Shown in pieces: positions 6,546 through 30,273 of a DNA stretch of 64,000 bases; positions within the stretch are counted from its first letter, which is position 1; each line of letters begins with the position of its first letter. This DNA is from Paramacrobiotus metropolitanus. Lineage: Eukaryota > Tardigrada > Eutardigrada > Parachela > Macrobiotidae. The stretch spans positions 1 to 64,000 of the forward strand of contig NW_026570389.1 of assembly GCF_019649055.1 (NCBI RefSeq), read 5' to 3'. The notes under the pieces are model-generated. The model ran no database searches. It was not told the origin of the DNA and saw nothing but the letters and a program-made list of their open reading frames with translations. Both the position numbers and the translations under genes were made by a program.

Positions 6546-6546
6546 A

Positions 6547-7027: not shown

Positions 7028-7429
7028 GCGGGAACGGATAGTGGAAGAAGAATCTGGATCATCTGGATCATTTCCCCGTGGAACGCGGAACGGACGGACG
7101 GTTAACAGGTAGAAAACCGTCAATAATTACGAGATTGGCTAGTTGGTAAAATTGGCAATTTTTATTGGTCCGTACTGAGCTGAGCGTAAAGTAGGCGGAG
7201 TTTTGCACGCGGCGCGCATGTCTGGCCGTTGACCGTGACGTCAGGCAGATAAAAATTTTTAACGGATTAACGTGATTGGTCAGTTATCTGAGCCGTGATT
7301 GGCCGAAATTTGAATTGAATATTTTGAGCTAGCGGACCAATCAGAAAGAAGTAAACAACCCGAATGGGGATTTTCCGCTGAACTCTAGCTGTAAGGGGAA
7401 ATTTGATTTGAGATAAGATAATTGAGACG

Positions 7430-7920
7430 AAAAGTGACCTTTTGAGTTCAGACAAAGGAAAAGTGACCTTTGACCAAAGTCGAGCTAGAAAGTGACCTTG
7501 ATATAATTGAGCTGGAAATTGACCTTTAACTTGAAATTGAGTTGAGAAGTGACCTTTTAACAGAAGTTGAGTTGAAAGTGACCTTTACTGAAAAGTTGGA
7601 ATTGACCAAATTGACCAATTTAAGTGACCTTTATGATCTGAAACTGACGAACGGTGACCTTTACCGAAGCGAAATTGAACTGAATAGTGGTACTGCGATA
7701 TCAGCAGCTGTAGGATTTCATTCACTAACGTGTTTGGAACCGTAAAAGCTGTTTCGAAGTTTTGTCCGAAAGTGACCTTTTAGGGCAAATCTCTCGAACT
7801 TTTTACCGAAAAAGTGACCTTTACAAAGGACTTAGTCGAAATTTTTCAGTCGAAAAGTGACCTTTAATAAGGACTTAGAAAAATTTCGGAGGTACAGAGT
7901 GACCTTTAGGATTATTGAAT
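7430..7920 (+). repeat. Dense array of TGACCT motifs, mostly GTGACCTTT, in the leader
   Basis: Twelve TGACCT cores in about 490 bp, all in the same orientation. Most read GTGACCTTT; one reads TTGACCTTT and one GTGACCTTG. They are separated by irregular AAGTTGA/GAAATTGA-rich spacers. This is the densest part of the motif set that covers the whole element. It lies between the hairpins and the first long frame. An AG at 7957-7958 (ttggcag) could be a weak splice acceptor before the ATG at 7983. Confidence 0.9.
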
Positions 7921-7982
7921 AAATCATACAATAACGTGTGTGTGAGATAAATTGGCAGGAGCGTCCAAGTTGTCCGATCAAC

Positions 7983-8591
7983 ATGGACAAAGACCAAGAC
8001 GAACCGACATCCAACAGCAGTCAGGGAAGCAAAAGCTCCCGCAGTTCACAGCAAAGCGCACCAAACCCATACAAAAAGGATCTGTACCCGTACTCACGTC
8101 CAGTTGGACATGAGCGGAACACTCGAGCGCCCAAGGCATTCGAGAAGAAGGATTCACGAGGCTCTGATAGCACTTATCAGAAGGCGCTCGAGTCAGTCGC
8201 TAATCAGGAAAGCTCCAGCGACGACCAGAAGCACACTCCCGCGTCTACGGCGGGAGGCAATCCGATGAACCAGATAAAGGTCACCGGGGAGGAGAAGTCC
8301 ACAGAAACAGGAGTGGAAGCAATAGGGGCATCACAGTTGGATACTACCATTAGCAAAACGGACGAGCAGGATAAAAATGCGAACCTGACTCAATCGAAAA
8401 TGGAAAAGACAAAGGTCACCGGAGAGGAACTAGCCGAACTGGGATTGGATGACCTTTCACTGAACGATAAGACCGCGGACGATGACCTTTTTGCAACTCC
8501 AATGGTCTCAGATGAATCCAACGAGTCATACTTCACAGATGATGACGCAACGATGAACATGTCCTTTTCAAACTGCAATGAAAGAGGCTGA
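7983..8591 (+). CDS. Element ORF 1: acidic, Ser/Gln-rich N-terminal gag-region protein
   Basis: About 203 codons from the ATG at 7983. This start is preferred over an in-frame Met at 7938 because it follows the leader and a possible acceptor. The product is low-complexity, rich in Ser, Glu, Asp and Lys, with no recognisable fold and no membrane segment. It encodes four copies of the AAAGGTCA motif. It ends at 8591, inside the start of the next frame (14 bp overlap), so it may be joined to it by a frameshift or interrupted by a one-base error. Position before the coiled coil and capsid region suggests a gag-side role, by inference only. Confidence 0.5.
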   Translation: MDKDQDEPTSNSSQGSKSSRSSQQSAPNPYKKDLYPYSRPVGHERNTRAPKAFEKKDSRGSDSTYQKALESVANQESSSDDQKHTPASTAGGNPMNQIKVTGEEKSTETGVEAIGASQLDTTISKTDEQDKNANLTQSKMEKTKVTGEELAELGLDDLSLNDKTADDDLFATPMVSDESNESYFTDDDATMNMSFSNCNERG

Positions 8592-9513
8592 CCGAGCAGA
8601 AGAAGTGACCCCGTTTAAGGATATCCCCGAACATTTAATTGACCGGACACAGAATGGAAAGGTTATCAATGTACGACCACAGTCACCTAACAGTCCTACG
8701 TCAACTCTTAGGAGACGCGTAAGGGAGCTGGAAAATGAACTTGATGCCACTGAACGTCAGGCGGACAAGCGGAAACAGGAGTATCGAGACAGATTATCGA
8801 TACTCGAAACTCGCTTATTCGAATTGGAACAGCAACAGGGTGACCTCCAGAGCTCCGCAGATGGTTGGAAAGTCAAATATGAGCGACAAAAGGAAATTGC
8901 AGAAGAGTACCTAAAGATGGCAGATGACAGAGAAATGGAAGGTCATCTCGCTGTCAGTGACCTTAATGAAAGCATGTCAGAAGAATCAGCAGAAAGGTCA
9001 CGGCACTTGGCGGAATTGAAGGAAGAGTGCGACCAGTTGCGTCAAAAGGTCACTGAAGCTGAAATTAAACGGGACGAATACGCGACCAAATTCGCAGAGG
9101 TCACACAACGGTTAACGACATTGGCAACGGAGACGTTCAAACTAAGGAATGATCTGAAGCTACGGGAGGAAGCAGTCAGTACTCTACAACTAGAATCGAA
9201 AGGTCATCAGGAACGGGCGGACGAAGCTGAGAAGTTGCGCAATGATGCAATCAAAGCGATGCGAGAGGCAAGAGACATCACAGCTACTGAAGGAGAACGC
9301 CTGAAAGAAGAAATCAAAAAGGTCAACCAGGAGAATGAAAAGGTCATAGAAGACATTGAAAAGGTCACTAAGGAAGGACTCAAATGGCAAAAGGAAGCAC
9401 GGCGACTGGACACAATGGTCACAACATTGGAGCTGAAGGACAAAGAGTGGCAACAACAGGTCGCTCAAAAGAGTCAGGAGATTGCAAAGCTGAACACTGA
9501 CCTGTCGATATGA
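8578..9513 (+). CDS. Element ORF 2: long coiled-coil protein
   Basis: About 311 codons, almost entirely charged helix. Heptad-like Leu/Ile spacing runs from about residue 45 (STLRRRVRELENELDATERQ) to the end, with no Cys or Pro breaks in the middle. Ten or so AGGTCA/TGACCT words lie in it, read as KVT, KGH or ERS depending on frame. It overlaps the preceding frame by 14 bp, and coiled coil resumes in the next frame 29 bp later, so the two probably belong to one protein. Coiled coils upstream of capsid are known in some Gypsy gags. The specific function is unknown. Confidence 0.6.
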   Translation: MKEADRAEEVTPFKDIPEHLIDRTQNGKVINVRPQSPNSPTSTLRRRVRELENELDATERQADKRKQEYRDRLSILETRLFELEQQQGDLQSSADGWKVKYERQKEIAEEYLKMADDREMEGHLAVSDLNESMSEESAERSRHLAELKEECDQLRQKVTEAEIKRDEYATKFAEVTQRLTTLATETFKLRNDLKLREEAVSTLQLESKGHQERADEAEKLRNDAIKAMREARDITATEGERLKEEIKKVNQENEKVIEDIEKVTKEGLKWQKEARRLDTMVTTLELKDKEWQQQVAQKSQEIAKLNTDLSI

Positions 9514-9541
9514 CCACCACAGCATTGGCAAAGATGATGAG

Positions 9542-10216
9542 TTGATCGCAATCAAGGATCAGCTGAGATCAGCCGCTGGGCAGTATCAGCAACTCGAAAA
9601 TGAAACGAGTGAGCTGGTCGAGCACATCAAAAGATGGAACGGGAAAATGAAAAGGTCACCTAGCAGAGTCTTTAAACTGCAGGAACACTTACGAAAGGTC
9701 AACCTGGAAAATTCTGATCTAAAGAGAGAAAGAGAAGAACTTCAACTGAGAACTAAACGATTGGAAGATGAGAACAAGGCGCTCCAGACGTCTAACAAAC
9801 ACAAAGATGAACAACTCCTACAATATGGAGTTAAAACGACAACAGTGGAGTCCCCTCCGCCCAGTTACAGCAAGGCGCATGAAACGGGCACGGGTAAAAG
9901 CTTCCACTTCGACATGCCGCTACGAACTGGTACTGGCAGAGGAAGTGTCAAAAACGAAAAGGACGGGGAAAAGGCCAAAGATGACAAAGAGCCACCATCG
10001 GAAAGTTACCCGCATATGAGTCGAGGTGACCCTTCACAATTTCCCCCGCACATGGAAACAAATGTGTTCATTGATGAAGGACGACGGGACAGACCCCCAG
10101 CCGGCAGGAGCGTCCAAGGAAATCCCGTTATGGAAAAGCGAAACGAAATCAAAGCGATGATGGAAGTAGCGAAGAAGACGATGACCAGAGAGCAGAAAAT
10201 ACAGCGGTGCAACTGA
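9542..10216 (+). CDS. Element ORF 3: coiled coil, then Pro-rich linker before capsid
   Basis: About 224 codons. Residues 1-100 continue the coiled coil (LRSAAGQYQQLENETSELVE). Residues about 105-200 are Pro/Gly/Arg-rich and look disordered. The final residues run into the next frame, which overlaps by 10 bp and begins with the capsid-like domain. This reads as a gag polyprotein broken by frameshifts. Confidence 0.6.
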   Translation: MIAIKDQLRSAAGQYQQLENETSELVEHIKRWNGKMKRSPSRVFKLQEHLRKVNLENSDLKREREELQLRTKRLEDENKALQTSNKHKDEQLLQYGVKTTTVESPPPSYSKAHETGTGKSFHFDMPLRTGTGRGSVKNEKDGEKAKDDKEPPSESYPHMSRGDPSQFPPHMETNVFIDEGRRDRPPAGRSVQGNPVMEKRNEIKAMMEVAKKTMTREQKIQRCN

Positions 10217-10632
10217 CAAAAGCACTCAACTCGATGGCCAGGAAAACACCACTCATGACCTTTGACGGCAGTCGTGACACAGTGAGTGGGTGGACACGAT
10301 TGGTGAAAGAAACCCAAAGGACTTATCAGTTGACGGACGACCAAATCATGATTGAGATAGCCAGTGCAGTGAAAGGTCCTGCAAAAACATGGTTTGAAGG
10401 AGAAAAGGACATCGCAGCCGAAGATGGAATTGAATACTCAATAACAGAGTGGATGGACAAATTCAAAGACGAATATGGTGATCGAGATGAAGAAGTCTTA
10501 GGCTTACGTGAGGCCTATGCAAGGAAATTTGAACTCGGAAAAAGAATCGCTGGACCAGTATTATCAGGCGATGATGCGATTCAAAGCAAAAAGAATCATC
10601 ACGGAGAAACAAGCAGTCGGATTCTTAATTGA
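10207..10632 (+). CDS. Gag capsid-like domain, N-terminal part (frameshifted)
   Basis: About 141 codons. MTFDGSRDTVSGWTRLV, then WFEGEKDIAAE and EWMDKFKDEYGDRDE, follow the retrotransposon gag pattern (aromatic near an F-x-G, then a WF motif, then a short helix before a Y/F-G-D). The frame leaves the conserved sequence near 10540 and the second half of the domain continues in the frame that opens at 10508. Only the part up to there is meaningful. The role is capsid assembly in the cytoplasm. Confidence 0.7.
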   Translation: MQLTKALNSMARKTPLMTFDGSRDTVSGWTRLVKETQRTYQLTDDQIMIEIASAVKGPAKTWFEGEKDIAAEDGIEYSITEWMDKFKDEYGDRDEEVLGLREAYARKFELGKRIAGPVLSGDDAIQSKKNHHGETSSRILN

Positions 10633-11722
10633 AGGATGTAGAGGAGACAATGAACTCTACAAGGCATTGCGGATACAAAAGTGCAAGACACCAACGGACG
10701 TGAAGGACTTCTTCCGACATTGGGCCACCGGCGAAGAGAAATATAAGGCGCCTAAAGGTCAACGTAATCAGGAATACGTGACCATCCGCCAAGGGCAAAT
10801 CGAAAATGTGCCGCCACAGAGAATGGCAGCGGCACCACCCCAGCAACCAGTCGAATACCGTGTGGAGACTCCGGTCAAAGAGGTCACGGAAAAGGTGACC
10901 TTTATCGACAGTCAGACGGGACAACCGATAACATATGCGATGGTGGCGGCGATACAGGCAGCAGCTCAAGTGAGACCGGTAGCCCAGAATGTGGCTCCCC
11001 AGAATGTGGCCCCACCTGCACCACAGAATATGGTCCCTATGAATGTCGGGTTACCACAACAAGGAGGGGGTAACGGAAACTTTGGCGCAAATGGATACGG
11101 AAATGGAAATTGGAATGGAGGTCAGGGGAACTTCCGAGGGAATCAACAGCAAAACCAAGGGTCACGAACTGAGTTTAAGTTCCAGATGATTGACGGATGG
11201 GTGGCGAACAATGTGCAGATGTGCCAGTACTGTATGTATGGCAACCACCAGACCCAGGGATGCAAATTCGCCAACACACCACCGGAACAGAACCCAAACC
11301 TGTTTGCCTTCAACGAGTGGCAACGACTGCGCGGGCTCGGTGGTTGGCGCCAAGCGGTCGCAAATGGATATGACCTGATCACGCAATGGTACCAGGCGAA
11401 AGCGAACTTTCAGAATCAGCAAGGTAACGGGAACTATGGAAATGGAAATGGGGCGGCCAAGGCGGCTATCGCGGTGGTGGCTTCGGCCGCGGCGGCTTCA
11501 GAGGAAGGAACAGAGGCTTTGGCCGCGGAAACTTCAGAGGAGGCCAGAACAATGGCGGCGGCCAAGGAAACTACCAACAGGGTGGTGGCCAATATAATAA
11601 CGGTGGCGGACAGAATCCTAACCCGGCAAATGATATCGGACAACAACAAGGAAATGTGCAAGGCGCGCAACAAGGTGGAGCGCCGGTTCAGGGAAACGGG
11701 CAAGATCAGTAGGCACCGGTGA
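10508..11722 (+). CDS. Gag capsid C-terminal part and nucleocapsid with CCHC knuckle
   Basis: About 404 codons. It continues the gag domain (LDQYYQAMMRFKAK, AVGFLIEGCRGD), then a Pro/Gln/Gly/Asn-rich linker, then a zinc knuckle C-x2-C-x4-H-x4-C at 11222-11263. Past about 11450 the reading becomes an Ala-rich artefact. Another frame over 11450-11720 reads as Gly/Arg/Gln repeats of RGG-box type (GGYRGGGFGRGGFRG), so a one-base frameshift lies near 11450. Knuckle plus RGG box is a normal RNA-binding nucleocapsid layout. Confidence 0.78.
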   Translation: MRPMQGNLNSEKESLDQYYQAMMRFKAKRIITEKQAVGFLIEGCRGDNELYKALRIQKCKTPTDVKDFFRHWATGEEKYKAPKGQRNQEYVTIRQGQIENVPPQRMAAAPPQQPVEYRVETPVKEVTEKVTFIDSQTGQPITYAMVAAIQAAAQVRPVAQNVAPQNVAPPAPQNMVPMNVGLPQQGGGNGNFGANGYGNGNWNGGQGNFRGNQQQNQGSRTEFKFQMIDGWVANNVQMCQYCMYGNHQTQGCKFANTPPEQNPNLFAFNEWQRLRGLGGWRQAVANGYDLITQWYQAKANFQNQQGNGNYGNGNGAAKAAIAVVASAAAASEEGTEALAAETSEEARTMAAAKETTNRVVANIITVADRILTRQMISDNNKEMCKARNKVERRFRETGKISRHR

Positions 11723-11773
11723 GCCTACTGATCGACCCGACCCTAAACCACCGGATAAAAGGGAAAGGTCACC

Positions 11774-12305
11774 ACTGCAGAATGGTACTGCAGTGAATGT
11801 GACCACTGCAACGGCTATATGGATGCCGTCAGCGAAAAAGCAAAATGGACCGGCTATATGGATGCCGCAACCACAAGAAACGGCTAGATGGATGCCGCCA
11901 CAGCAAAGAGAGACGGCTATATGGATGCCGTCATCACAAAAAGGAAATGGAACGGTTATAGGGATACCGTCACAGAATCTAAGGTCACCGCAGAATGGTA
12001 CTGCGAGTGGAAACGTGCAACGGGACCAAAGATCACCGCAGAATGGTACTGTGAGTGGGAATTGTCGTGACGGTAGCGCGACACTGCAAAAAGTGCAGCA
12101 AAATGAAAGGTCACCGTATTGCAGCGAGAAAGTGTTAGCTGAACGTCGTGCATTACGTAATGCCAAGATTCGACAAGCGCTGTTAAACCAAAAGAAACCG
12201 CAAACTGAAACCGCAGAAGAAGTGGAAATGCACCACGAATGGTTTCGGAAACAGATAAATGGCAAATCGAAAGACCAAAATTCACCACCGCAGAACGATA
12301 CTGCG
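11774..12305 (+). other. Hairpins with covarying stems inside coding sequence
   Basis: Family D, loop AATGGTA or AACGATA: 11774-11794 (ACTGCAG/CTGCAGT), 11989-12005 and 12289-12305 (CGCAG/CTGCG), 12037-12053 (CGCAG/CTGTG). Family E, loop TATATGGAT and variants: stems CGGC/GCCG at 11812-11828, 11851-11867, 11881-11897 and 11914-11930, and CGGT/ACCG at 11953-11969 with both sides changed. Longer hairpins follow at 14473-14511 (16 pairs, one internal mismatch) and 15476-15498 (7 pairs). These lie within reading frames, so they constrain the encoded peptide (repeats such as AIWMP). Confidence 0.65.
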
Positions 12306-14126
12306 CAAGAGGAAAATGAGCAACACGCGAAATTCCGGAAATTTTTGGCAGAAAACGATAAGGCGAAGGAGCCAAGTTGCGATTGTTACGGGGAGCCAAA
12401 GCCAAAGTTTTGGAATTGTTCAGAAGACGAAGAAGAGAAGCGAATAAGGCAAGAATGGATTAAGCAGAATATCAACGTTATTAGTAAAGATGAAAGGTCA
12501 CCTTCTGTTGGAAAAGTCCAAGTGAAAGGTCAGGGAGCGAATGTGAATGTGAAAGGTCACGGCGATAGCGTCGTGTTAAAAGGTCAAGAAACAGACTTGA
12601 CACTGCGAACAGCGCAGCAAAAGAATGGCGAATTGGCACAACAGAACTCCGATGACTCACTTGTAGATGCAATAACGCTGCAACAGAAGGAAAAGTGGCA
12701 AAAAGTGGCCTACAGACCGAATGGCAATCACGGGATGTGGATACCCGTAACGCCGAAGGCAAAGCAGAAAGCGAAAATGTCACAAGAGGACTACTGGGAC
12801 ATGCAACAGTTGCGAACGCAATGTGAAAGAAAGCGACTGGAAGAGTTGGTTACCGGGAAACCAGCGCAAGGGTCATCGAACCCAGTCCCAGTATTCAATC
12901 CAGAGGAATATAAGAAGACATTCGCTGACTGGAATCATTCACGTAATGCTCCACCACAGGATAAACCGCCGAATTATGGAGAAAAAGTCCCCATACAAAA
13001 GCTGACAGGTGGCGGATTTGTCATGAAGCGCAACGAAAGGTCACAGGACTTAGCGCAAAATGAACAAAAAGGACGGTCAAATGAGATAGCGCAAACGCAA
13101 CAGAGTAGCGCAGTTGAAAGGTCACGGGACTTATCACAAGCACTGCAAAAGGATGCCAATGACAAGTCACCAGCCCGAACAGACGGGATGTCTTCGCAAA
13201 TTGACCCAACGAAAACGAACAATGAAGTGTCCGCGAAGGTGATCGAATGGATGACCGAAAAGGGATATGACATGGTTACATATGAAAGGTCACCAGATGA
13301 GATGAAAGATAGCGAAGAAGACGAACTGAAGCGAGCGGACCAAATAACAAGTGAAGTCATTGAGAAGTTGAGAGATAAACGAAATGAAAATCGCAAAGAG
13401 GAACTGATCCATCAGACGATAAATGAAGTGACTAAAGGTCACATGGATAGCACAAAAGCAAATGAGCAAGTGCAGAATGTGGAAAAGGTCACCGGTGATA
13501 AAATGGCTACAGAGAAGCGAACAAATAAAGAAAAGCCGCGAAAATATTACGATGTTCGGACTAACGTTCCACATAGGATTGATAAGCTGAGCGAGATACT
13601 GAAAGGTCATAGCACTCCAGCAAAAGGACAAGTGCTTTCCGATATGGATCCGGGACCAGTATCGCTTATCCCTGTGAAATGTAAGATTCACACCTTGAAG
13701 ATTCAAAATGGAAAATTGCCCAAAAGAATTGAAGCGTATACACACGAAGTGAAAGTGGGAGACATAAAGGTCAACGCAATGTTGGACACCGGCGCTGAGA
13801 CGTCGCTGATCAGCAAACCGTTTTGCGAGAAGAATGGACTTCACATGCTCCCATTGCCACCAGATAGATTGGTGAAAATAAACGGAATTAGCGGAACGTC
13901 AGGATTCCTGGTGACGCATTACTGCGTAGCACCAGTGACCTTACGAAAGAAGACAAGCGAACATTCCTTCTACGTCCGACCGAAGTGCGACGACGTACAA
14001 GTGCTACTGGGATTCGACTTCTTGGAAAAGAAGTTCGTACTGATGGATAATGAAGGTGAAGAAGAAAAGAAGATGACCCGAAACCAGTCGCCAAAGTTCA
14101 AGTCGGAAAGGTCACCGAACTTGTAA
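11793..14126 (+). CDS. Element ORF with C-terminal aspartic protease
   Basis: About 777 codons. Residues 1-75 are Trp-Met-Pro and NGT repeats generated by the hairpin repeats. Residues 75-630 are charged, low complexity and dense in KGH/ERS/KVT encoded by the AAAGGTCA motif. The protease is near residues 640-755: VNAMLDTGAETSLI with catalytic Asp at about 13784, a flap region, and LLGFDFL near the end, as in retropepsins (LDTGA...ILGMDFL). One protease monomer is expected to dimerise. It cleaves the polyprotein. The frame ends at 14126, but the sequence continues in a different frame from about 14105. Confidence 0.85.
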   Translation: MNVTTATAIWMPSAKKQNGPAIWMPQPQETARWMPPQQRETAIWMPSSQKGNGTVIGIPSQNLRSPQNGTASGNVQRDQRSPQNGTVSGNCRDGSATLQKVQQNERSPYCSEKVLAERRALRNAKIRQALLNQKKPQTETAEEVEMHHEWFRKQINGKSKDQNSPPQNDTAQEENEQHAKFRKFLAENDKAKEPSCDCYGEPKPKFWNCSEDEEEKRIRQEWIKQNINVISKDERSPSVGKVQVKGQGANVNVKGHGDSVVLKGQETDLTLRTAQQKNGELAQQNSDDSLVDAITLQQKEKWQKVAYRPNGNHGMWIPVTPKAKQKAKMSQEDYWDMQQLRTQCERKRLEELVTGKPAQGSSNPVPVFNPEEYKKTFADWNHSRNAPPQDKPPNYGEKVPIQKLTGGGFVMKRNERSQDLAQNEQKGRSNEIAQTQQSSAVERSRDLSQALQKDANDKSPARTDGMSSQIDPTKTNNEVSAKVIEWMTEKGYDMVTYERSPDEMKDSEEDELKRADQITSEVIEKLRDKRNENRKEELIHQTINEVTKGHMDSTKANEQVQNVEKVTGDKMATEKRTNKEKPRKYYDVRTNVPHRIDKLSEILKGHSTPAKGQVLSDMDPGPVSLIPVKCKIHTLKIQNGKLPKRIEAYTHEVKVGDIKVNAMLDTGAETSLISKPFCEKNGLHMLPLPPDRLVKINGISGTSGFLVTHYCVAPVTLRKKTSEHSFYVRPKCDDVQVLLGFDFLEKKFVLMDNEGEEEKKMTRNQSPKFKSERSPNL

Positions 14127-14203
14127 AACAGACGGGAAATGCTCAAACGGTTAATAAAACGCTAATCCCAGTACCAGAGGCACCGGGAAACGAAAAGAAA
14201 AAG

Positions 14204-16681
14204 ATGACGCGAAAAGAATTGTCACCATTTGAGCAGTTGCAAATGATTCAGCAGGAGATCGAAAACACGTTAAATCGGACAATGCTGACACAAAAGGGAA
14301 GAGAAAAGGTCATCCCAGTACCAGAGGCACCGGGAATGACGAGAGTGCAGCAGAACGAGATTAGCCAACGGATAATCCCGGTACCAGAGGCACCGGAGAA
14401 GATTAGCGAAAGCGTAAATGTCAAAAAAGTCAACGAAAGGAAAAAGGAACCACTCGCGCCAGACACGGATGAGGCGATCATATTTCTCCCGGACGGGAGA
14501 AGTATGATCGCAGATGAATGTAAGCAAGGAGACACAGAAAAAGGTGTTGAAAAAGCTATCCCAGTACCAGAGGCACTGGAAATAAAGACGGCTAAAGTGG
14601 GGAAGGATAAAAAGAGTGAAAGGTTACGAGTTTTGAAACGAATAGCTGAAGAGGAACAGATGTTTACAAGCGAAATCCGCGACAAGGCACTCGAACAATT
14701 GAAAGGTCACCGAACAGAAAAAGAACCAGAGGTCATTGAAATATCCTCTGAGGATAAAAGCGTGACTCCAATCGAATGTGAGGAAGATACCACAGTACAG
14801 GAACAGGTTAAACCTGAAGCGAGTCAAAGGACATTAACTCCAGAAGAACGAGCCGGGAGTTGTCACCACGGTTACTTTGAGGATCCGTGCAGAGTGCAAC
14901 CACAATGGGAATGCGCGGAATGTTGTGAAAATGCCTCTCAAGATGACCCTTCAGAATGGCCAAGATGTAATGCCGCATTAGCAGACCTTAAAGGTCATGC
15001 CCAAAAGAAAGCGAAAAGCATCATGCGGACAAACGAAATGTGGAAACCACACATCGAACGGTATCATTGGAATAGATATCGAACGTGGTTGTCATGTGTG
15101 GAAAGTTTTATAATTGGAAGAGGCAGATGGCTAAACCATTGGTTGCAACGTGTCGAGAAAGGAATCCAAGATCCTCTCGATCCGGTAGCAACAGAAAGGA
15201 GATTTGAACGAGAGATAGAAGAAATGACCGAGGAAGGAGAAATGTGGGAAGAAGCGAGAGTTGACCTTTTCTGGGACTTCCGTGTGAACCACATGTATAA
15301 AGGTGAAGGGAGAACGATCATCTTCCCGGCAGGACTTGGTACACCTGTCTACGAATCACTTGAAGTGTACTACAACGCGTTAAAAGAGGGAAACGAAAAA
15401 GCATTCGAGAAATACTGGAAGAAATTCGAGGAAGAAATCCCCAAATTTGACGTAAAAGAAATGCGAGAACTACAGGTAACCCGGAAAAGAAGGTTACCGG
15501 GATTGATGCAAAAGAAAAAGGTGACCTTTGCACCAGATCCAGATGGAGTGGACTACCCAGAACGAGGTGGTGATACATGGTGCATGTATGAAACGATTCC
15601 GAATGATGAATGGGTCACCGAAGAACTGATGGCAAACTGCATCTTTGTTGGTCCTAAACGACCTAAAGGTTACGAAACAGTTCAACAGGATGAAGCCGAT
15701 AAAGGGACTGTCAAAGAAGCAGAGAAAGAGGAACCAGTTCAAGAGATAGCCGAAGGACAATCGAATGAAACAGAAGAAAGTTCAAAGTCGGCTTTCGATA
15801 TTGCGCAGATGTTAACGGACAGAGGTGAAATGTGGAAAAGGTTTAAAGAGGAAGTTGAAAGGATATCGAACGAACAACAAAACCCAGTAACTGAGGCAAA
15901 AAACGGGGAAAGGTCACTCGATAACGGTGAGGAATGTCCGCCGGTCGAGTTGACCGAAAAGCCATTAACGAGCCTTGAAGAAATAAATGAATTGGAAAAG
16001 TCAAAATCGGACGAAGAAAGGTCAAACTCCGATCAATCAGAAAGGTCACCAACGAGAATTCGAGTAGCAAGGAGTCACCCGAGGGTCGCTGCACGAAATG
16101 GGCGAAAGGCAAAAGAAGGGGACAAACCCCTGCTCAAAAATTCGAAAGCGAAAAAACTTAGCGATTCGCGAGAAAACGAAAGTGACCTTTCATCGGAAGA
16201 CGAAGGAGTTGATGAGCGCCCACTTGAAAAGGCTGACAAAGGTCAAGCCACTGCACAGGAATATGAGAGCAGTAATTCGGATTCAGAGTGGACGAGTTCA
16301 AGTGATAACTCAACAACTTCGGAAGATTCAGGTGTAAGTGACCTTTCGGAGCAAGAGGATTTAATGGACTTGGATGAGGATGACGAAGTAGATGAAGAAA
16401 AAGAAAAGGATATTAAAGTCAGAAGATTGAAAGTGGAAAAAGCCAGAATGTCGAAAGACGTGATCAAAGTCTACAGTGACCAACGAATCAAATTGAAACC
16501 GTCAAACTGCACACGCGTAAAGGTCAAGATGGGAAAATATGCACCGGCTCAAAACAAGCTGATGTTTACACCGGTCCCACAAGTGGAAACTGAAGTGCAA
16601 CCGTTGGCAGGAGTGACGGACCACAGGGAAAATACTTCGAAATCGTCATCGCAAATCATAGTAGCAAATACCGAATCGTGA
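14204..16681 (+). CDS. Element ORF between protease and RT, unknown function
   Basis: About 825 codons, and open upstream to about 14105 in the same frame, so the Met at 14204 may not be the true start. Repeats of IPVPEAPG (DNA copies near 14165, 14316, 14379, 14557) begin it. A Trp/Cys-rich segment follows at about residues 220-420 (HHGYFEDPCRVQPQWECAEC and a Trp-rich helix), which could be a small folded domain that I do not recognise. The remainder is acidic, ending in a segment of the kind that links protease to RT in Gypsy pol. Gypsy elements usually have little between protease and RT, so this insertion is unusual. Confidence 0.65.
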   Translation: MTRKELSPFEQLQMIQQEIENTLNRTMLTQKGREKVIPVPEAPGMTRVQQNEISQRIIPVPEAPEKISESVNVKKVNERKKEPLAPDTDEAIIFLPDGRSMIADECKQGDTEKGVEKAIPVPEALEIKTAKVGKDKKSERLRVLKRIAEEEQMFTSEIRDKALEQLKGHRTEKEPEVIEISSEDKSVTPIECEEDTTVQEQVKPEASQRTLTPEERAGSCHHGYFEDPCRVQPQWECAECCENASQDDPSEWPRCNAALADLKGHAQKKAKSIMRTNEMWKPHIERYHWNRYRTWLSCVESFIIGRGRWLNHWLQRVEKGIQDPLDPVATERRFEREIEEMTEEGEMWEEARVDLFWDFRVNHMYKGEGRTIIFPAGLGTPVYESLEVYYNALKEGNEKAFEKYWKKFEEEIPKFDVKEMRELQVTRKRRLPGLMQKKKVTFAPDPDGVDYPERGGDTWCMYETIPNDEWVTEELMANCIFVGPKRPKGYETVQQDEADKGTVKEAEKEEPVQEIAEGQSNETEESSKSAFDIAQMLTDRGEMWKRFKEEVERISNEQQNPVTEAKNGERSLDNGEECPPVELTEKPLTSLEEINELEKSKSDEERSNSDQSERSPTRIRVARSHPRVAARNGRKAKEGDKPLLKNSKAKKLSDSRENESDLSSEDEGVDERPLEKADKGQATAQEYESSNSDSEWTSSSDNSTTSEDSGVSDLSEQEDLMDLDEDDEVDEEKEKDIKVRRLKVEKARMSKDVIKVYSDQRIKLKPSNCTRVKVKMGKYAPAQNKLMFTPVPQVETEVQPLAGVTDHRENTSKSSSQIIVANTES

Positions 16682-17997: not shown

Positions 17998-18020
17998 CGG
18001 AATGGGAATGTCTGGCAGTT

Positions 18021-20753: not shown

Positions 20754-20879
20754 CCACATAGACATAAATAAGGGGTCACACTTAATTAAAAATAGGAGTT
20801 GGGAAGGCAAAAAGAAAGGTCACCACTGTGCAAAAAGTTAACCTTTATTGTTTCGTTTTATAGAAGGTAAGCACAGTTA
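20754..20879 (+). promoter_or_regulatory. Inter-cistron region with splice-site-like signals
   Basis: tttcgttttatag (AG at 20862-20863) is followed three bases later by AAG|GTAAGC, a near-consensus 5' splice site at 20867, and then by the ATG at 20880. An AAAGGTCAC lies at about 20815. A donor here could join to the acceptor at 26070-26071 and bring the 26086 frame to the front of a spliced RNA. Confidence 0.45.
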
Positions 20880-23240: not shown

Positions 23241-24546
23241 AACCGGAGGGGCAAGACGTTCTCTACAAAGAGTGTTAGAGATTGCCCAGGGAAGTCATGA
23301 GCACCTTCAGTGTGATGAACCAAACTGTGCCTATTGTAATCCACCTGGTGACGACGAACCAGAGTCGGAAGACGAGGACCCACCTGAGGAAGAAGGCTCA
23401 GACGAAGAAACGGCCGACAAACATAAAAAGCCCTCAAAAGCGAAGCCCTCAAAAGTCAAACCGAGGAAAGCGCCCAGATTGGAAGAGGCCATGAACCGTG
23501 ACAAGGTTAAGAAAGGCGACTTTCTCAAAAAACGAAGAGAAGAAGAAGAGAAGAAGAAAAGACAGGAGGAAGAAGATAAGAAGAAGAAGAGCGGTGACGA
23601 AAGCGATAGCACAAGCACCGGGAAGAAGAAAAGAGATGAACCAGCGTCGCATGACGTTGAGATATTGGACGAGTCAGTTGGCGAAGTTGAAGAAAGGTCA
23701 TCGACACCTACGAAGTCAAAGAAAGTTATCCAATCGGCTACAGCAGAGCCATCAAAACCCAAAGGAAAGGTCATAGCGGTGAAACAAGCTGTCCCCATTG
23801 TCATTTCCGCATCCACGCCAAAGGAGCGCAAGGACAAACAGATCCGCGAAAAAGCGAAACGGGAGACGTCGCGTGAATCGGAGGCATCGGAAGTGAGCCT
23901 TCCAAGCACTTCGACGGTTAGTGCGAGGTCACACACGGACTCGAAAACGACACGATCAAGAACCACCGAACCAAGAAGCTTAGCGGAAGCTCTGGATAAA
24001 GGGAAAAAAGCAAAGAGCGAACCCGTTAAGACCAAAGGAAAGGGCAAGACAGTCACGAAAATCGACGCATTAGCGACGGTTAATTACACTGAACCAGATG
24101 GAGAGAGTGAACTGGACTTCACCTCAGACGAAGAATTTGATGGTCCCGATGATGATAATTTGAACACGGTCGATGAAGTAATCAGAGCGTATAACGGAGC
24201 TGAAAAGAATTTCACACGAATAAGAACAGCATCGGTGACATCCAAATTTAAAGCAGGCCTGAAGACGTATTTGAAGAAACAACATCGTAGCTTCACTAAA
24301 CAAAAGTTCGACGTCGTATTGGAATTCGCGCGGAACGCAGGAAAACTTATACAGAAGCACCCGAGTTTCTCGTATGAGGCCAAGTTGTTCAGACCAGCCA
24401 GTTCGGATAAAGCGCTGACAACTCCGAATGAAGCGGTCCCAATGCGAGTAGAAAGGGCAATCGCAGGAATGACAAGCCCGTTAGGATCAACGAGTCATCG
24501 GATTAGCCAATACATCAACGCAGTTTGGAACGACGGAACGGGATGA
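23056..24546 (+). CDS. Accessory ORF B: highly charged linker and small C-terminal helical domain
   Basis: About 496 codons. It is meaningful only after about 23150, where it takes over from ORF A, so A and B are probably one protein. There is a short CDEPNCAYCNPPG cysteine cluster, a long Lys/Glu/Ser region (KKRREEEEKKKRQEEEDKKK), and a C-terminal helical segment (KFKAGLKTYLKKQHRSF, then FDVVLEFARNAGK). The charged part resembles generic nuclear low-complexity sequence. The function is unknown. Confidence 0.55.
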   Translation: MMEHISDSQDEWKMERTKRYFTTLRRTLCGRSPHRDLRKRQDTWKFIPRHKKAPGTSANLTETGGARRSLQRVLEIAQGSHEHLQCDEPNCAYCNPPGDDEPESEDEDPPEEEGSDEETADKHKKPSKAKPSKVKPRKAPRLEEAMNRDKVKKGDFLKKRREEEEKKKRQEEEDKKKKSGDESDSTSTGKKKRDEPASHDVEILDESVGEVEERSSTPTKSKKVIQSATAEPSKPKGKVIAVKQAVPIVISASTPKERKDKQIREKAKRETSRESEASEVSLPSTSTVSARSHTDSKTTRSRTTEPRSLAEALDKGKKAKSEPVKTKGKGKTVTKIDALATVNYTEPDGESELDFTSDEEFDGPDDDNLNTVDEVIRAYNGAEKNFTRIRTASVTSKFKAGLKTYLKKQHRSFTKQKFDVVLEFARNAGKLIQKHPSFSYEAKLFRPASSDKALTTPNEAVPMRVERAIAGMTSPLGSTSHRISQYINAVWNDGTG

Positions 24547-25745
24547 TAAAAGAAATCGATACGGCAACCGAGCGTGTGCTGCCGAGATTGATCAAACAGA
24601 ACGTCCTTGCCACGACAAACGCACACAAAGGACACCCGATCCGATACACGAGAGTTGGTCTAATACCACCGGAAAGACAGATCCACTGTAATATGTCCGA
24701 CAGTCAGGATATGGAAAAGGTCACAGTTTCATCGAAGACAAAAGGCCCAATGGACTCGGAATCGGGAAGTGATGACGATACTACAATAACGGCTCCTTCT
24801 GGACCTGCGACAGAAAAAGATGAACAGTCGAAAGGTCAAAAGACATCTGGAACTACCGCAGAAGTCCAATCGAAAGGTCATGAGACTTCAGACAAACGGG
24901 AGAAAGAAAAGGTCATGCTCCCGATGGATAAGGCAGCGGCAGAAGCTGAAGCGGATTCGGCGCGCCAGGTGTTTCACAAATCACTGTTCATACCATTAAA
25001 GGACGTCTTTGAGAAGGAACGATCGAAGTCGGTCGGCGATTTAAAAGGTCAAGAGACTTTGCCACAGGAGGAGAAGAAGACAGCCGAACCAAAATCGGCG
25101 GGGTCATCATCAGGATCACTGGCAAAGCTGAGGATCGACGAGACAGCGACGGCTGACCCAACGGACTCGACATCCTCCCAGAAAAGTAGCGGAACACCGG
25201 CAAAGGAGGCTACAGATTACATGTTAGGGCCGGCATTGGACGTGAATAATCGTACATGGAACGAAGTCCAGAACGCGCTCCAGATCATCCGAGAAAAAGA
25301 GATGCTTGGTACAGATCTGAAGAGACAAGTGGCAATAAATTCAAACGGAAGGTCGTCACTTAACATGACTGAACGAGCTCTGAAACGAGCATATAAAGAA
25401 GGAAAGCTGGGATGTAAATACAATAAGGATAACAAAGTCGTTTACTACCTTCCGAAACAGGGTCAGGAACGAACGCCCAGATTGAAAATGGAATTGGAGG
25501 CCTGGAAGATAGCCATCACAGACGTGGCTTTGGACGCCATCGGCGGTACAAATGGAGCGTCATGGAATGACCTTTCGAACTTCATGTCCGTCAATTATGA
25601 ATTGGGAGAGTTGAATATTGAAAGCGATAAGGAGTGGATTAAGAATGCCGTTGAAGCCTTGATCTCGGACGAAGTGCTTCATATTAAGCCAGATGGCCGA
25701 ATCGATTTCAAGCCGTATAAACCATCGACGAAAGAATCCGAGTGA
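24525..25745 (+). CDS. Accessory ORF C: two winged-helix-like repeats
   Basis: About 406 codons, beginning in frame after ORF B (22 bp overlap). Residues 1-225 are charged and rich in KGH encoded by AAAGGTCA. Two C-terminal segments look alike: about 243-312 begins TWNEV and ends in NKVVYYLPK, and about 345-397 begins SWNDL and ends in PDGRIDFKP. Both read as three helices and a strand-turn-strand, the outline of a winged helix or linker-histone-type domain. That would suggest DNA binding. The match is by pattern only. Stop at 25743-25745. Confidence 0.5.
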   Translation: MERRNGMIKEIDTATERVLPRLIKQNVLATTNAHKGHPIRYTRVGLIPPERQIHCNMSDSQDMEKVTVSSKTKGPMDSESGSDDDTTITAPSGPATEKDEQSKGQKTSGTTAEVQSKGHETSDKREKEKVMLPMDKAAAEAEADSARQVFHKSLFIPLKDVFEKERSKSVGDLKGQETLPQEEKKTAEPKSAGSSSGSLAKLRIDETATADPTDSTSSQKSSGTPAKEATDYMLGPALDVNNRTWNEVQNALQIIREKEMLGTDLKRQVAINSNGRSSLNMTERALKRAYKEGKLGCKYNKDNKVVYYLPKQGQERTPRLKMELEAWKIAITDVALDAIGGTNGASWNDLSNFMSVNYELGELNIESDKEWIKNAVEALISDEVLHIKPDGRIDFKPYKPSTKESE

Positions 25746-26085
25746 ACTAACCGAGTGTAATATGCAGCGAGTAATGAACCCTGCATATTACAGAAAAAGC
25801 ATAAAATAGTTCAAAACGAAAGAGAAAAGTGTTATGAAAGGTCACCTGAAAGCAGCAATAGGACTAATAGAAAAGGTCACAGTAGTCAGAGAGTGCTGAT
25901 AACGTGAGAAAGGTCACCACGTTACAGTGATAGAAAAGCCAGCAGGAGCTAAGAAAGTCTCAGCTCAGTAACGGAATAGGCGTAAAAATGATAGAAAGCC
26001 TTGATAACGGATAAGAATGGAAAGGATTAACGTCGAAAAGGTTACTATGATGGATTGTTTTATAATTGCAGATTAAAGAAGAAAG
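25746..26085 (+). promoter_or_regulatory. Inter-cistron region with motif copies and a 3' splice site
   Basis: Non-coding. Three AAAGGTCAC copies lie at about 25838, 25874 and 25909. It ends with ttgttttataattgcag (AG at 26070-26071), a good acceptor with pyrimidine tract, 14 bases before the ATG at 26086. A similar acceptor, ttgtttgcag, lies at 28968-28969. Confidence 0.5.
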
Positions 26086-28392
26086 ATGGCACAAAAAGGT
26101 CAAGCCACTCCTAAAGGTTCAGGAACGGCGGCAGACATCGATCAGTTTACGGGCTATAATCCAAAGTGTCCGGACTGCTTACGGAACAACAAAAAGGTTG
26201 ATAAGAAATTCCCTTGCTACACTTGCATTCACAAGCTGGACGACCCACATATTGTCTCACTTGTTGGAGTCTCGGAAGCTAAACGTGGGAACCTGGACGT
26301 CTTCCGTAACCTGATAAGTGCAAGGAATTACGGCAGCATCCCTGTAGAAGAGCGAATGCTATTCGAAGATCGTTATCGAGAAGCGATCCGGAACAATGAA
26401 CCTGGTTGGGATGACACCCTGGAGCCGTTGAAGTGTCCACAAACAGACGCATATCGGAAGAAGTTTGAAGAAGACCAAGCGAAGATGCGAGCTCAGCAGA
26501 TGGAAGACGAAATCCGCGCGAAAATTAATGCGGAAAATAAAAGAGCAAGTGAACAGGCTGCACGAGAATCACTGCCCAGCACATCGAGTTTAGTTGCACC
26601 TACGGGCATGGCCAGCCTTAACGAAGACGAAATGCAACTTGTACGACAGTCGCTTATCATACAAATTGAAACGTTAACGAAAGATCCAGCTGCCATGTCA
26701 GACGAGGTATTCAAAATGCTGTTGCGGGAGAAGAAACGACTTCAAGACGGGTTCGCGCCGGCACCCTACATAAAGAAGGAAGTCGAAAGACGTATGGATG
26801 ACCTACGTAAATCTCGCCGAACCGAAAGCGATGTGCTGCAAGCATTCAGAAATTTTAAACGGGACGAAGGCTTTATACGACCACGGTCGCCCCCGCATAG
26901 AGAAAGGTCACGCGGACATTCACGAGAATATGAGCGAACTTCTGAACGACAGAGAGAAAGGTCACGCGAACACTCTCGTGAAAGGACACGTGACTACCGC
27001 AACGAAAGGTCACGCGAACGTTCTCATGATAGAGATTACCGTGGCGGAAGAGGATGGGTGCGCCATGGAGACGAAGTTACAGAAACGAGTATTCAAAGGA
27101 AAATCGATACGGCAAAGATTTTGGCGGCGACGAGAGGACGTGAAGAAAAACGGCGTGCGGAGACGTTCCGTACAGAGCCTGAAAAACAAGGGCATCAGGT
27201 GCCGATGGGAGTTGCATTCCGGAATCGTAACGTCAGGATGTCAACACCCGAAAGGTCATGGGATAAAAGACGTGAACATACGCGAAATCGAACGCCTGAC
27301 CCACAGGATAAGAGATGGCAACAGAGAGCTGCATTTTATGCGACCTTTGACTCGGGCGCAAGCAAAAGGTCATCAAGCACTGAACGGGAAGATTCACCCC
27401 CAAAGTATCAGCGGGTGGAGTCAATGGTTCACGTCGTGGATCCAATTGTGAGCGTCGTACAAGAAGACGATGCGATGGAAGGAACCAGCTCAGTTGTGGA
27501 AACCGCATCTCAAGAGAATGTAACCCATCGACGGAATGTAATTCTGGATAGTGACCTTCAACCGGCTACACCGGCGAGTAATGAACCGTCGCAGCCTGAG
27601 TCAGGGGAGAGACGTGAACTAGAAGGTCATCGTGAACCGGATAATCGTCGCCAAGCTGAACAGCGACAGAACTCCAGATTCGATAACCGACAACCGGATA
27701 CCATCGACATGGAATATAATACGACTGATATTGATGAGCAAACGGTCGAAATTTGTCGATACTTTGGACTTGAATCGGACTCGGTTGAAGCCAACAAAAT
27801 TGGCACAATTCTGAGACAGTTGAGCCATTTCTTACTTGACTCAGGTTATGCGAGAGAGATTAAACAGGGAGTGGAGCAAGGAACTTTTCGTCGATTATTC
27901 ATCCACCGCGATTCAGTACGGGACTGTTATCTCCCTATCCGACGGAACGGGCTACATAGTTTGGTGGATTTGAGTTTATTGGATGTACCGCTGGATACAA
28001 CTGACCCAATCGGGATGACACAGTTCTACTACAGAGACTATCCCGAACGACAAGAATACGTGGCTCAGTTTGTTTTACGACACGTGAATCCAGCCTTCAA
28101 GTTGCTTGCAGCAAGGGCATCGATAGGACTACAGGTGGATCCGAAGGACTATGCCGCAAAAAGGATGGGGCAAAAGGTCTTTGCTGCGAGACTGGCACAT
28201 TACAAGACACAGAATCAATTGGTGTCTAATACCATGAAGGACGACATTCCACCGTTCTTCCGAGCTCATGTCGCTAAATTGGGACAACCGATGGAACATA
28301 TCAGCATAGCGCATACGGCTCGCAAGGCGCTGAAAAGTGTAAGACACGAATGGAAAGGGCAACTTGACACAGCGCCACGCATCCCAAGTTGA
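26086..28392 (+). CDS. Accessory ORF D: zinc-finger, Arg/Ser-rich and unknown C-terminal domain
   Basis: About 768 codons. Residues 25-48 hold C-P-D-C ... C-Y-T-C, a C-x2-C/C-x2-C zinc-binding pair. Residues 90-250 are helical and charged. Residues 265-325 are an SR-like run (RERSRGHSREYERTSERQRE), where each ERSR is an AAAGGTCAC copy. Residues about 545-755 form a folded domain with YFGLES, RLFIHRDSVRDCYLPIRR and QFYYRDYPERQEYVAQF that I cannot place. No signal peptide or membrane helix. The last residues pass a frameshift near 28370. Confidence 0.7.
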   Translation: MAQKGQATPKGSGTAADIDQFTGYNPKCPDCLRNNKKVDKKFPCYTCIHKLDDPHIVSLVGVSEAKRGNLDVFRNLISARNYGSIPVEERMLFEDRYREAIRNNEPGWDDTLEPLKCPQTDAYRKKFEEDQAKMRAQQMEDEIRAKINAENKRASEQAARESLPSTSSLVAPTGMASLNEDEMQLVRQSLIIQIETLTKDPAAMSDEVFKMLLREKKRLQDGFAPAPYIKKEVERRMDDLRKSRRTESDVLQAFRNFKRDEGFIRPRSPPHRERSRGHSREYERTSERQRERSREHSRERTRDYRNERSRERSHDRDYRGGRGWVRHGDEVTETSIQRKIDTAKILAATRGREEKRRAETFRTEPEKQGHQVPMGVAFRNRNVRMSTPERSWDKRREHTRNRTPDPQDKRWQQRAAFYATFDSGASKRSSSTEREDSPPKYQRVESMVHVVDPIVSVVQEDDAMEGTSSVVETASQENVTHRRNVILDSDLQPATPASNEPSQPESGERRELEGHREPDNRRQAEQRQNSRFDNRQPDTIDMEYNTTDIDEQTVEICRYFGLESDSVEANKIGTILRQLSHFLLDSGYAREIKQGVEQGTFRRLFIHRDSVRDCYLPIRRNGLHSLVDLSLLDVPLDTTDPIGMTQFYYRDYPERQEYVAQFVLRHVNPAFKLLAARASIGLQVDPKDYAAKRMGQKVFAARLAHYKTQNQLVSNTMKDDIPPFFRAHVAKLGQPMEHISIAHTARKALKSVRHEWKGQLDTAPRIPS

Positions 28393-28828
28393 AGAAAGGA
28401 TTAATAAGATCAAAGATTCTCTGGGAAGTGACTACGTTGAACCGGTGGACGGAATCGAAACTTACATTGATGAATTCTTAGTGAAGAAAAGTGACCGTCG
28501 CCCAGACCGTGCGCCTAACCAGATGGGACGACGCGGCATACGAAACCAACAGCTGCGGGATAATCTCGCCGACGTGCAGCGTCGATTGGCAGATGACCCT
28601 GATAATCGAAGGCTGCGACTGGAAGAAAATGATGCGCGCCATCGACTAGAGGCGGTTAAGCGCAGTCGCCAAGGGAAAGGTCGTGGCCAGCGCGAAGTTG
28701 ATCCGGCAAAGGTCATGGAAGTTGACTCGACGGAACCAGTTGACCGAACTTCCGATCGAAACCAACCGGAAAGCGCTAAGAAACGCCCGCCGAGAGATGG
28801 CGAGGGCGATTCAAATGAAATGGAATAG
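28364..28828 (+). CDS. Continuation of accessory ORF D in another frame
   Basis: About 154 codons of charged helix (RINKIKDSL, NQQLRDNLADVQRRLADDPD), then an Arg/Lys-rich tail. It overlaps the preceding frame by 29 bp and reads as its true C-terminus after a one-base frameshift. TAG at 28826-28828. It is the last coding sequence of the element. Confidence 0.5.
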   Translation: MTQRHASQVEERINKIKDSLGSDYVEPVDGIETYIDEFLVKKSDRRPDRAPNQMGRRGIRNQQLRDNLADVQRRLADDPDNRRLRLEENDARHRLEAVKRSRQGKGRGQREVDPAKVMEVDSTEPVDRTSDRNQPESAKKRPPRDGEGDSNEME

Positions 28829-30273
28829 TGCTGATCGTTAGGATCACACTATTAAAAGGACGTCTACGGCATTTGTCGGTACGTCACAAAAGATGAAAAT
28901 GGTGTTGTATAAAGGGCGTGACACGTGACATGTTAACATTAACTGTATTTGTGTATTTGTTGTTTGCAGCGTTTATAGCACAGAATTGCCTAAAAGAAAT
29001 CATGTGGAATATCTATTGGGGTTGAAATTGATTCGGTCTATAAAGCCGGCCCCAAGGGAGTTGCTACGGCAGTTAGCCGGCCCTCCTCTCTAAGCGACTC
29101 AGTGTTATAAATGCACAAGAGAAACTACGGTAATCAAGCCGGATCTCTTGAATACGAAACGGGGCCACAAGCGGCGAAAAAGAGAAAGACAACAGGTGGA
29201 ATATTGATGAGGTTAACTTAATGCGGCAATTAGCCGGCCTCATTAGAGTTGTTACGGTAAACTATGCCGGCACTCTTTTCAAGCGATTCAGTGTTAAAAT
29301 TAAAACGAGAAAAACTACGGTAATCAAGCCGGATTTCTCGTAGTAATGGATGTTAGCCACAAGCGGCGAACAAGAGTAAAAGACTTAAGGTGGAAATTTC
29401 ATGGGGTAAATTCAATGCGGTAACTAGCCGGCCCCATCAGAGATGCTACGGTAAACTTGCCGGCACTCTGGCCGCTCGAGGCATACTGAAGTTGGATGTG
29501 CGACGGAAAGGTCAAACTGCAAATTTTACCAGGGAGGCAAGCGAAGAAGTGCTTGAAAGCCGCAGAAAATTGGCTAAGTCCCTCCATGACCTTTAATGGA
29601 AATTTTGACGAGTGGGATGACCTTTGGGATCATCAATTGCCCAACAGAGTCACCCTATTGGAATTTAAGTCGCATGACCTTTGGGACCATTAACCCAAAA
29701 TGAGTCGCACATCTCAACAGATCATCTCAACAAAGGATGACCGTTACCAGGGAGGAAGCGAACTACGCTTGTCTTAAAGACGTCCCTCCATTACCTTTAC
29801 GGATCTCATTTTGAAGTCGTACAATTGATACGCACCATATTCCAAAGATGAAGCAGTATTCCTAAGTCGTACTTGATACGCACCCGATTCTCAAAGCGGA
29901 TTGTGATGAAAGTCGCATTACGGATGCGCGAAATTGCTCAACGGAGCGGAATGGATTAAAAGTGCGGAAAACGGTGGACAGGACCTGTGACCTTTGCGAG
30001 TCAGAAATGGAGGATCCTAGTCTACAATTTGATTAATACTTTTGTTGATCTGTTACTGTTGATCTGTTCCTAATGATTTGATAGTATTTTTATAATTGGA
30101 TCTCTTTATTCACATTGTATTAAATGGAATTGTGCCTTTACGGAATTGATGTGATAAAATGGATTAAGAGAATTTGATGTTTTTGAGCACGCACAGACAC
30201 CGGCGACCGTCGTCTTCTCGTGGATTCGGGAGTGTGTCCAGCCTCACAGGAGCTCGGCATCCCCCCAGAGGCA
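28829..30273 (+). other. 3' non-coding tail of the giant element
   Basis: No coding frame is supported. The hairpin array at 29016-29470 is followed by AAAGGTCA near 29505 and four TGACCTTT copies near 29583, 29616, 29674 and 29987. A polypurine tract is not obvious before the 3' LTR, where CCCCCCAGAGGCA precedes it. Confidence 0.6.
29016..29470 (+). repeat. Array of eight covarying hairpins with a CGG...GCCGG core
   Basis: Outer stems: 29016-29055 TTGGGG/CCCCAA; 29057-29086 GGAG/CTCC; 29116-29150 CAAGAGA/TCTCTTG; 29207-29243 ATGAGG/CCTCAT; 29245-29276 AGAGT/ACTCT; 29305-29341 ACGAGAAA/TTTCTCGT; 29401-29437 ATGGGG/CCCCAT; 29438-29470 CAGAG/CTCTG. Inside each, a CGGYAA-type strand faces GCCGG. 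The stems differ completely in sequence yet stay paired. Two ACAAGC-loop hairpins (29164-29175 and 29356-29367, GCC/GGC) are interspersed. Two more of the same core sit in the 5' leader. Confidence 0.85.

Follow-up and report, generated by a model that had tools for sequence, protein, structure and literature searches.

A dispersed NR4A-type word along a giant Ty3/gypsy retroelement of the tardigrade Paramacrobiotus metropolitanus

Architecture of the element and distribution of the word

The window analyzed in this work, by which we mean the whole stretch of 64,000 nucleotides at the start of contig NW_026570389.1 (RefSeq assembly GCF_019649055.1) of the tardigrade Paramacrobiotus metropolitanus, harbors a long terminal repeat (LTR) retroelement of 24.4 kb, one of many copies in this genome, whose body is densely populated by a short DNA word, AAAGGTCA, built on the hexamer AGGTCA (TGACCT on the opposite strand). 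The order of its domains (protease, reverse transcriptase, RNase H and integrase) and the flanking LTRs, as established by Pfam matches and LTR alignment, identify it as a Ty3/gypsy element. The 5' LTR (6202..6546, plus strand) is 82% identical to the 3' LTR (30274..30633, plus strand) over 362 columns, and neither contains the word. The adjacent leader segment (6547..7434, plus strand), also devoid of it, begins with TGGTAGCAGAGC, which we take to be the complement of the 3' end of the initiator-methionine tRNA, and is followed by an array of 12 TGACCT, that is, of the word on the minus strand (7435..7905). All the open reading frames (ORFs) lie on the plus strand. The gag-like ORFs (7935..11722), assigned by position in the absence of a Pfam match and frameshifted in this copy, hold 23 sites. 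They are followed by an ORF that encodes an aspartic protease towards its 3' end (11634..14126; PF13650, E 4.1e-8, residues 705-796), an 873-aa ORF without Pfam match in the interval between protease and reverse transcriptase (14060..16681), the reverse transcriptase itself (RT; 16594..17997; PF00078, E 2.8e-26), RNase H (17868..18410; PF17917, E 2.6e-34) and integrase (18386..19717; PF17921 and PF00665). The region 3' of the integrase comprises some 9 kb of ORFs without Pfam matches: the accessory ORFs (19672..25745), for which no homologue was found from 20871 onwards in the copy of lineage B described below, and the last ORFs (26077..28828), which carry an N-terminal CX2CX12CX2C domain and an arginine/serine (RS)-rich stretch. 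The database relatives of the ORF at 26077-28389 are, in 13 cases out of 13, P. metropolitanus proteins, and a sequence search of the PDB with the last ORF returned no match. A small group of tail sites (one on the plus and four on the minus strand, 29509..29993) precedes the 3' LTR.

A total of 117 AGGTCA/TGACCT hexamers (80 on the plus and 37 on the minus strand) were counted in 7430-30000, as opposed to 16 in the rest of the window. A sequence-only reading of this DNA had put these figures at about 115 and about 10; the former is borne out, and the latter is lower than the count made here. That reading had also claimed that most hexamers are extended, which is the case for AAAGGTCA (90 of 117, and two in the remaining window) and not for AAAGGTCAC (only 50 of 117, and none in the remaining window). 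The logo of the 117 sites shows a sharp 8-bp motif, A-A-A-G-G-T-C-A, with A at the two 5' positions in 95 and 105 sites, followed mostly by C or T and by little beyond. Markov models of orders 1 and 2 place the AGGTCA word first among the 6-, 7- and 8-mers of the element, and order 3 puts it within one rank of the top for 7-mers, whereas eight other 4-kb stretches of the genome (32 kb) yielded just 13 AGGTCA and four AAAGGTCA. Chance and base composition are thus ruled out by the Markov nulls and the control stretches. Over the whole genome (169.8 Mb in 533 contigs, as searched here), AAAGGTCAC occurs 19,414 times and its reversed, uncomplemented form 3,461 times. The published assembly of this species, according to the part of the report available to us, comprises 170,483,395 bases in 684 scaffolds and was built from Oxford Nanopore and Illumina reads (PMC8277472).

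The word resides mainly in coding DNA, since 95 of the 117 hexamers fall inside the coding tiling; the tandem arrays that hold it are short, and most instances lie outside tandem repeats. Under a null model preserving amino acids and codon pools (1000 shuffles), a check proposed by the sequence-only reading, AAAGGTCA ranks first among coding 8-mers, with 70 sites in 20.4 kb against a null mean of 5.6 and a maximum of 15. This enrichment holds for both strands (58 plus-strand sites against a null mean of 5.25, and 12 minus-strand sites against 0.37) and, as had been anticipated, for all coding frames, with 15, 21 and 22 plus-strand sites in the three of them. Both strands are likewise enriched in AGGTCA, with 75 plus-strand instances against 13.9 and 20 minus-strand instances against 3.3. 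The codon-preserving null rules out peptide repeats or codon bias as the source of the word, and its enrichment on the minus strand of coding DNA likewise rules out a one-strand RNA motif.

The density of the word changes along the element: 24 sites per kb in 7430-7935 give way to 5-6 in gag-pol and to 3.6-3.8 in the ORFs 3' of the integrase, with 10 in 29500-30000. Contrary to the claim that it occurs in every region, no site was found in 6202-7434, where about 5.9 would be expected at the element mean and which includes the first 888 bases past the 5' LTR, nor in 28828-29500 or 30000-30633. The word also obeys a minimum spacing. In the window element and four copies of related lineages (B, E, F1 and F2), gaps of 6-17 bp are nearly absent (4 of 344, against 25.2 expected) and gaps of 18-39 bp are in excess (72 of 344, against 41.2 expected, short tandem repeats in B feeding the excess), and in neither case were 5000 local jitters, which ignore coding limits on spacing, ever as extreme. 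Dimer sites are ruled out by the near-absence of close spacings. Crowding thus appears to be avoided, as would be expected of independent monomer sites on duplex DNA.

Conservation of the word within and between lineages

The family of the window element, hereafter A, provides direct evidence on the maintenance of the word. A leader query of 506 bases yielded 150 candidates, of which 40 copies were scored, and constraint was assessed on 30 A copies, the window copy included, at 12 leader and 12 coding sites. Substitution in the leader was 0.015 within the word and 0.122 elsewhere; in coding DNA (7935-9420) it was 0.077 within the word and 0.200 outside. When third codon positions alone are considered, the rates are 0.098 within and 0.345 outside (12 sites each; p values from circular shifts, 0.005 and 0.0015). 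Individual copies carry 15-26 sites in 7425-9420, distributed over 37 alignment positions, 19 of which are kept in at least 25 copies. The sites of the A family are hence maintained, with some turnover, and the substitution rates indicate that they are under purifying selection in the element. Together with the codon-preserving null, the constraint at third positions supports the earlier proposal that selection acts on the nucleic acid and not only on the peptide.

The word is not restricted to this family. Several related lineages were identified in the same host, B and C being first encountered through AAAGGTCAC sites, unlike D, E and F, the last two of which came to light through similarity in DNA or RT; the relations among lineages rest on pairwise identities. 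A blastx search of the first eight AAAGGTCAC places on contig C1 found no match to A, B, C or E proteins at L001, L002, L006 and L007. The B copy examined (contig C1, pieces L053-L055) carries 108 AGGTCA in 17.5 kb, and in its coding DNA AGGTCA comes second among 6-mers, after the overlapping AAGGTC (75 against 18.0), even though the gag pieces of A and B are just 39% identical. Site homology was compared for A and B and for E against the window: over the 5.4 kb alignable between A and B, 20 sites are common, 10 are exclusive to A and nine to B, and the one 258-base stretch of E that aligns to window DNA leaves outside it 21 of the 23 E AAGGTCA sites. The E lineage has an RT 97% identical to that of B, from which it differs elsewhere, and its ORFs 3' of the integrase show 23-44% protein identity to those of A; among the coding 7-mers of E, AAGGTCA ranks first (19 against 3.0 under the codon null). 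The same 7-mer leads in two F copies with RTs 86% identical to that of B, namely F1 (52 against 8.3; 59 AGGTCA in 7.0 kb) and F2 (40 against 6.0; 41 AGGTCA in 6.0 kb).

Lineages C and D, on the other hand, lack this saturation, so that the expectation of finding the word in sister copies and relatives holds for A copies, B, E and F only. Their RTs are 85% (C) and 88% (D) identical to that of A, and their gag pieces 59% and 58% (64% between D and C, and 32% between D and B, best stretch). Coding AGGTCA amounts to 8 and 5 instances in C, against 6.7 and 3.2 expected, and to 9 and 6 in D, against 4.9 and 2.0. Other words take its place in the rankings: the top coding 6-mer of C is GAGATC (54 against 18.5), with AGATCA, AGATCG and AGATGA also enriched, and that of D is AGCTGA (23 against 7.6). 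Leaders reflect the same preferences: five of six C-type leaders (all but L060) have AGATCG, GAGATC or CAGATC as their most frequent 6-mer, and of the two D leaders one has AGCTGA in first place (L056, 13 instances) and the other has it tied at eight (L057). At positions homologous between A and C, AGGTCA in A corresponds to AGATC* in C in 13 of 50 cases and is unchanged in 11, as opposed to 13 of 216 other AGGnnn that read AGA in C; between A and B, the corresponding figures are one of 27 and seven of 85. These pairwise comparisons suggest a partly in-place switch from AGGTCA to AGATC in the C/D branch, and the simplest reading of the pairwise identities is that the ancestral AGGTCA word was lost there.

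Yet the C words are under weak or mixed constraint from one C copy to the next, which speaks against a clean switch, as does the conservation of the few relict AGGTCA. In six of seven C leaders (L058, part of which is duplicated, was left out), each taken in turn as reference, substitution was 0.087-0.144 within AGATC and 0.131-0.209 outside, the difference being slight for two references (0.125 against 0.142, and 0.130 against 0.131), and control words changed at rates near or above that outside. Relict AGGTCA changes little in these leaders (0.024, as opposed to 0.143 and 0.144 outside for the two references used). At third positions of C gag (10 copies, four references), AGATCR fell below the outside rate for L068, L066 and L069 and above it for L052, and AGCTGA fell below with all four, the frame of L066 being unsure; for the control word, GAAGAA, three references likewise gave a rate below that outside, and one a rate about equal to it.

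Several observations bear on the copies themselves. The examined B copy has no detectable homologue of A ORFs 20871-25742 (E 1e-4), and nine other B copies, at 82-86% identity, span the ORF junction without an insert over most of a 2-kb query, while the last 1.5 kb of the query is matched by two more (40 copies scored out of 195 candidates). Two probable single copies (G000, C73:688939-695484 and C1:2172096-2178653) are 88-90% identical to B at the integrase end and 76% in the last ORF; they are likely chimeras between lineages (B/E), and accessory genes behave as removable modules. The LTR pair of the window copy is only 82% identical, though many copies have an RT that matches its own at 95-97%, and no target-site duplication is apparent, as the bases flanking 6202 and 30633, read by eye, differ; such duplications are often decayed in old copies. 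The LTR divergence and the lack of a duplication indicate that the window copy is possibly old, or a recombinant between subfamilies. Two RT searches gave 1729 and 1505 first-look candidates; among 91 matches scored out of the 1729, four lie in open frames of more than 3,000 aa without a stop inside the match. Because these copies are intact in long frames, the overlapping frames into which the coding DNA of the window copy is broken are attributed to decay or assembly error.

Other features of the locus deserve mention. Repeat units of the form TACGG..CCGG, seven in the window, occur in the 5' leader (6956-7030) and the 3' tail (29044-29469), and the tail of lineage B (L053) has similar ACGG..CCGG units; a possible RNA hairpin array common to leader and tail comes to mind. 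Six element ORFs (P0004, P0005, P0006, P0008, P0009 and P0013) are labelled as host genes in public databases (e.g. 'RNA-binding protein 25-like' or 'serine/threonine-protein kinase fray2-like'), perhaps on account of the RS-rich stretch of the last ORF. Beyond the element, a diverged gene-like unit is present at about four places in 42135-58889, three in the same orientation and one inverted; it underlies the direct repeat families D2-D8, D10, D13, D16 and D17 and inverted repeats.

Candidate readers and competing explanations

The AAAGGTCA monomer sites of the element correspond to the NGFI-B response element (NBRE), the NR4A monomer site, an equivalence already drawn from the sequence alone and in agreement with the portion of PMC4777543 available to us. 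The host genome contains 63 zf-C4 matches, among them the DNA-binding domains of FTZ-F1, ERR and NR4A, the latter represented by a second-finger exon (L090) whose top four PDB matches are NGFI-B, NR4A1, Nurr1 and NR4A2. ERR, FTZ-F1 and ROR are ruled out as the best-matching receptor by the rarity in 7430-30000 of TCAAGGTCA (one instance), which we take to be the ERR/FTZ-F1-type site, of TAGGTCA (two), presumably the ROR-type site, and of CAAGGTCA (three).

From these data we propose, with a confidence that falls somewhat short of even, that the AAAGGTCA(C/T) words constitute a dispersed array of cis sites, running from leader to tail outside the LTRs, for a DNA-binding protein that acts as a monomer, host NR4A being the most likely one and its binding here a prediction. 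Each word would be read on double-stranded DNA by one monomer, and integrated copies occupied in vivo would probably be kept open or transcribed where NR4A acts, an effect that might be of an anti-silencing or enhancer-like nature. The persistence of the word in distant relatives, partly at other places, suggests a protein meant to coat the element. Several points weigh against this proposal. The absence of saturation in C and D, which inhabit the same host, implies that any benefit from NR4A is not general. Sites are missing from the LTR and the first 0.9 kb past it, where one might expect a simple promoter enhancer; other proteins could have the same specificity, as the number of zf-C4 matches in the host illustrates; common descent explains part of the agreement between A and B (20 of 30 A sites); the jitter null has the limits stated above; and an NR4A model gives no reason for covering coding DNA.

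A broader reading, which we regard as possible though not probable, goes further. The retroelement clade would use point substitutions, at synonymous and other tolerated positions, to inscribe its body, the coding regions as well, with an address code readable by proteins on double-stranded DNA. The NR4A word AAAGGTCA of the host would be shared by several lineages, and C and D would have rewritten it partly in place (AGGTCA to AGATC), marking a change of reader.

Readers other than a nuclear receptor must also be considered, and the strongest contender, which we deem rather unlikely, is an element-encoded protein that coats its own family, counters silencing and co-evolves with the word, in the manner of VANC. 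The different words of C and D (GAGATC and AGCTGA), their prominence in most leaders and the replacement of A AGGTCA by AGATC* well beyond other AGGnnn would all follow from it, since different words favor a reader able to change, and the Cys4 domain of the last ORF, common to A, B and C, supplies a candidate. Against it stand the weak or mixed constraint on C words and the lack in element ORFs, as judged by Pfam, of any zf-C4 match or known DNA-binding domain other than those of the integrase. Moreover, the A/B/E/F word has stayed constant while gag (A-B) and the post-integrase ORFs (A-E) diverged, and the retention of one exact word while fast genes diverge to 23-44% favors a slowly changing host reader. 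By eye, the C-terminal part of 24507-25745 resembles winged-helix or linker-histone-like repeats, without a Pfam match and with no homologue found in the B copy. This ORF had been put forward by the sequence-only reading as a reader, a role that is disfavored as an obligatory one because B carries the word and no homologue of ORFs 20871-25742 was found there; supply of its product in trans is conceivable.

Three further alternatives are less likely. An improbable one is that the word serves as a tag at the level of DNA, rather than as a chromatin signal, for some step in replication or copy exchange (cDNA handling, integration or recombination) kept by drive, like bacterial uptake sequences; saturation of both strands and all frames, the minimum spacing and the exchange indicated by probable chimeric B/E copies would suit it, but the LTR ends, where integrase acts, lack the word, and we know of no retroelement step that needs such a tag. 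Recognition of the word by the host in order to silence the element might account for a high-copy family in which AAAGGTCA is so concentrated relative to other window DNA; it is nevertheless highly improbable, for a silencing target should be lost and these sites are under purifying selection in the element. Least credible of all is an RNA-level motif for packaging, translation or stability, which the plus-strand bias of coding sites (58 against 12) would favor: the 12 leader sites lie on the opposite strand, and the enrichment of both strands in coding DNA means that there is no one-strand RNA signal.

Significance and relation to known systems

Our literature search, which covered few subscription papers, found among the entries listed no description of nuclear-receptor words in giant LTR elements, of element-wide motifs or of tardigrade LTR elements of this sort, and the accessible part of a paper on tardigrade transposons (PMC11071193) makes no mention of Paramacrobiotus or giant elements. 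If our proposal is true, the protein-coding sequence of an animal LTR retroelement would here have been shaped along its length by a second code, addressed to a DNA-binding protein and strong enough to reduce third-position change 3.5-fold (12 coding sites measured). It would make it possible to test how giant elements remain active in a silencing host, would provide numerous naturally occurring arrays of sites for NR4A to bind, and would serve as a warning that the codons chosen by mobile elements can inform on chromatin biology.

In the gypsy retrotransposon, the insulator is made up of Su(Hw) sites arrayed in the 5' leader; the cluster of 12 sites just past the 5' LTR region of the tardigrade element is similarly placed and putatively bound by a host protein. 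The likeness is limited to this leader cluster, given that the tardigrade sites run on through genes and tail and that their word is the NR4A site. As far as the available part of PMC4777543 reveals, NBREs share with the element an identical 8-bp word in single sites rather than dimers, but they lie near regulated genes in human leukaemia cells, whereas here they saturate a 24-kb mobile element. The HNF4-alpha sites of Alu repeats, in the portion of PMC3252374 accessible to us, also exemplify nuclear-receptor sites spread by a retroelement; Alu repeats are short, as opposed to about 100 sites in a coding element, constrained where tested. The VANDAL21/VANC21 and VANDAL6/VANC6 systems of Arabidopsis, as described in the part of PMC5735166 at hand, rely on dense words, specific to each family, that are read by an anti-silencing protein of the transposon itself. 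As in the tardigrade element, each family has a dense short word that is rare in other transposons, related families differ (here A/B/E/F as opposed to C/D) and density matters. The VANDAL word is mainly non-coding, spread by tandem repeats and bound by the element's own VANC; the tardigrade word, carried by an animal LTR element and with a reader that is only predicted, is also coding (95 of 117), in all frames and for the most part not in tandem repeats. VANDAL/VANC is the nearest known system in logic, with a dense family-specific word on the DNA and a protein that reads it.

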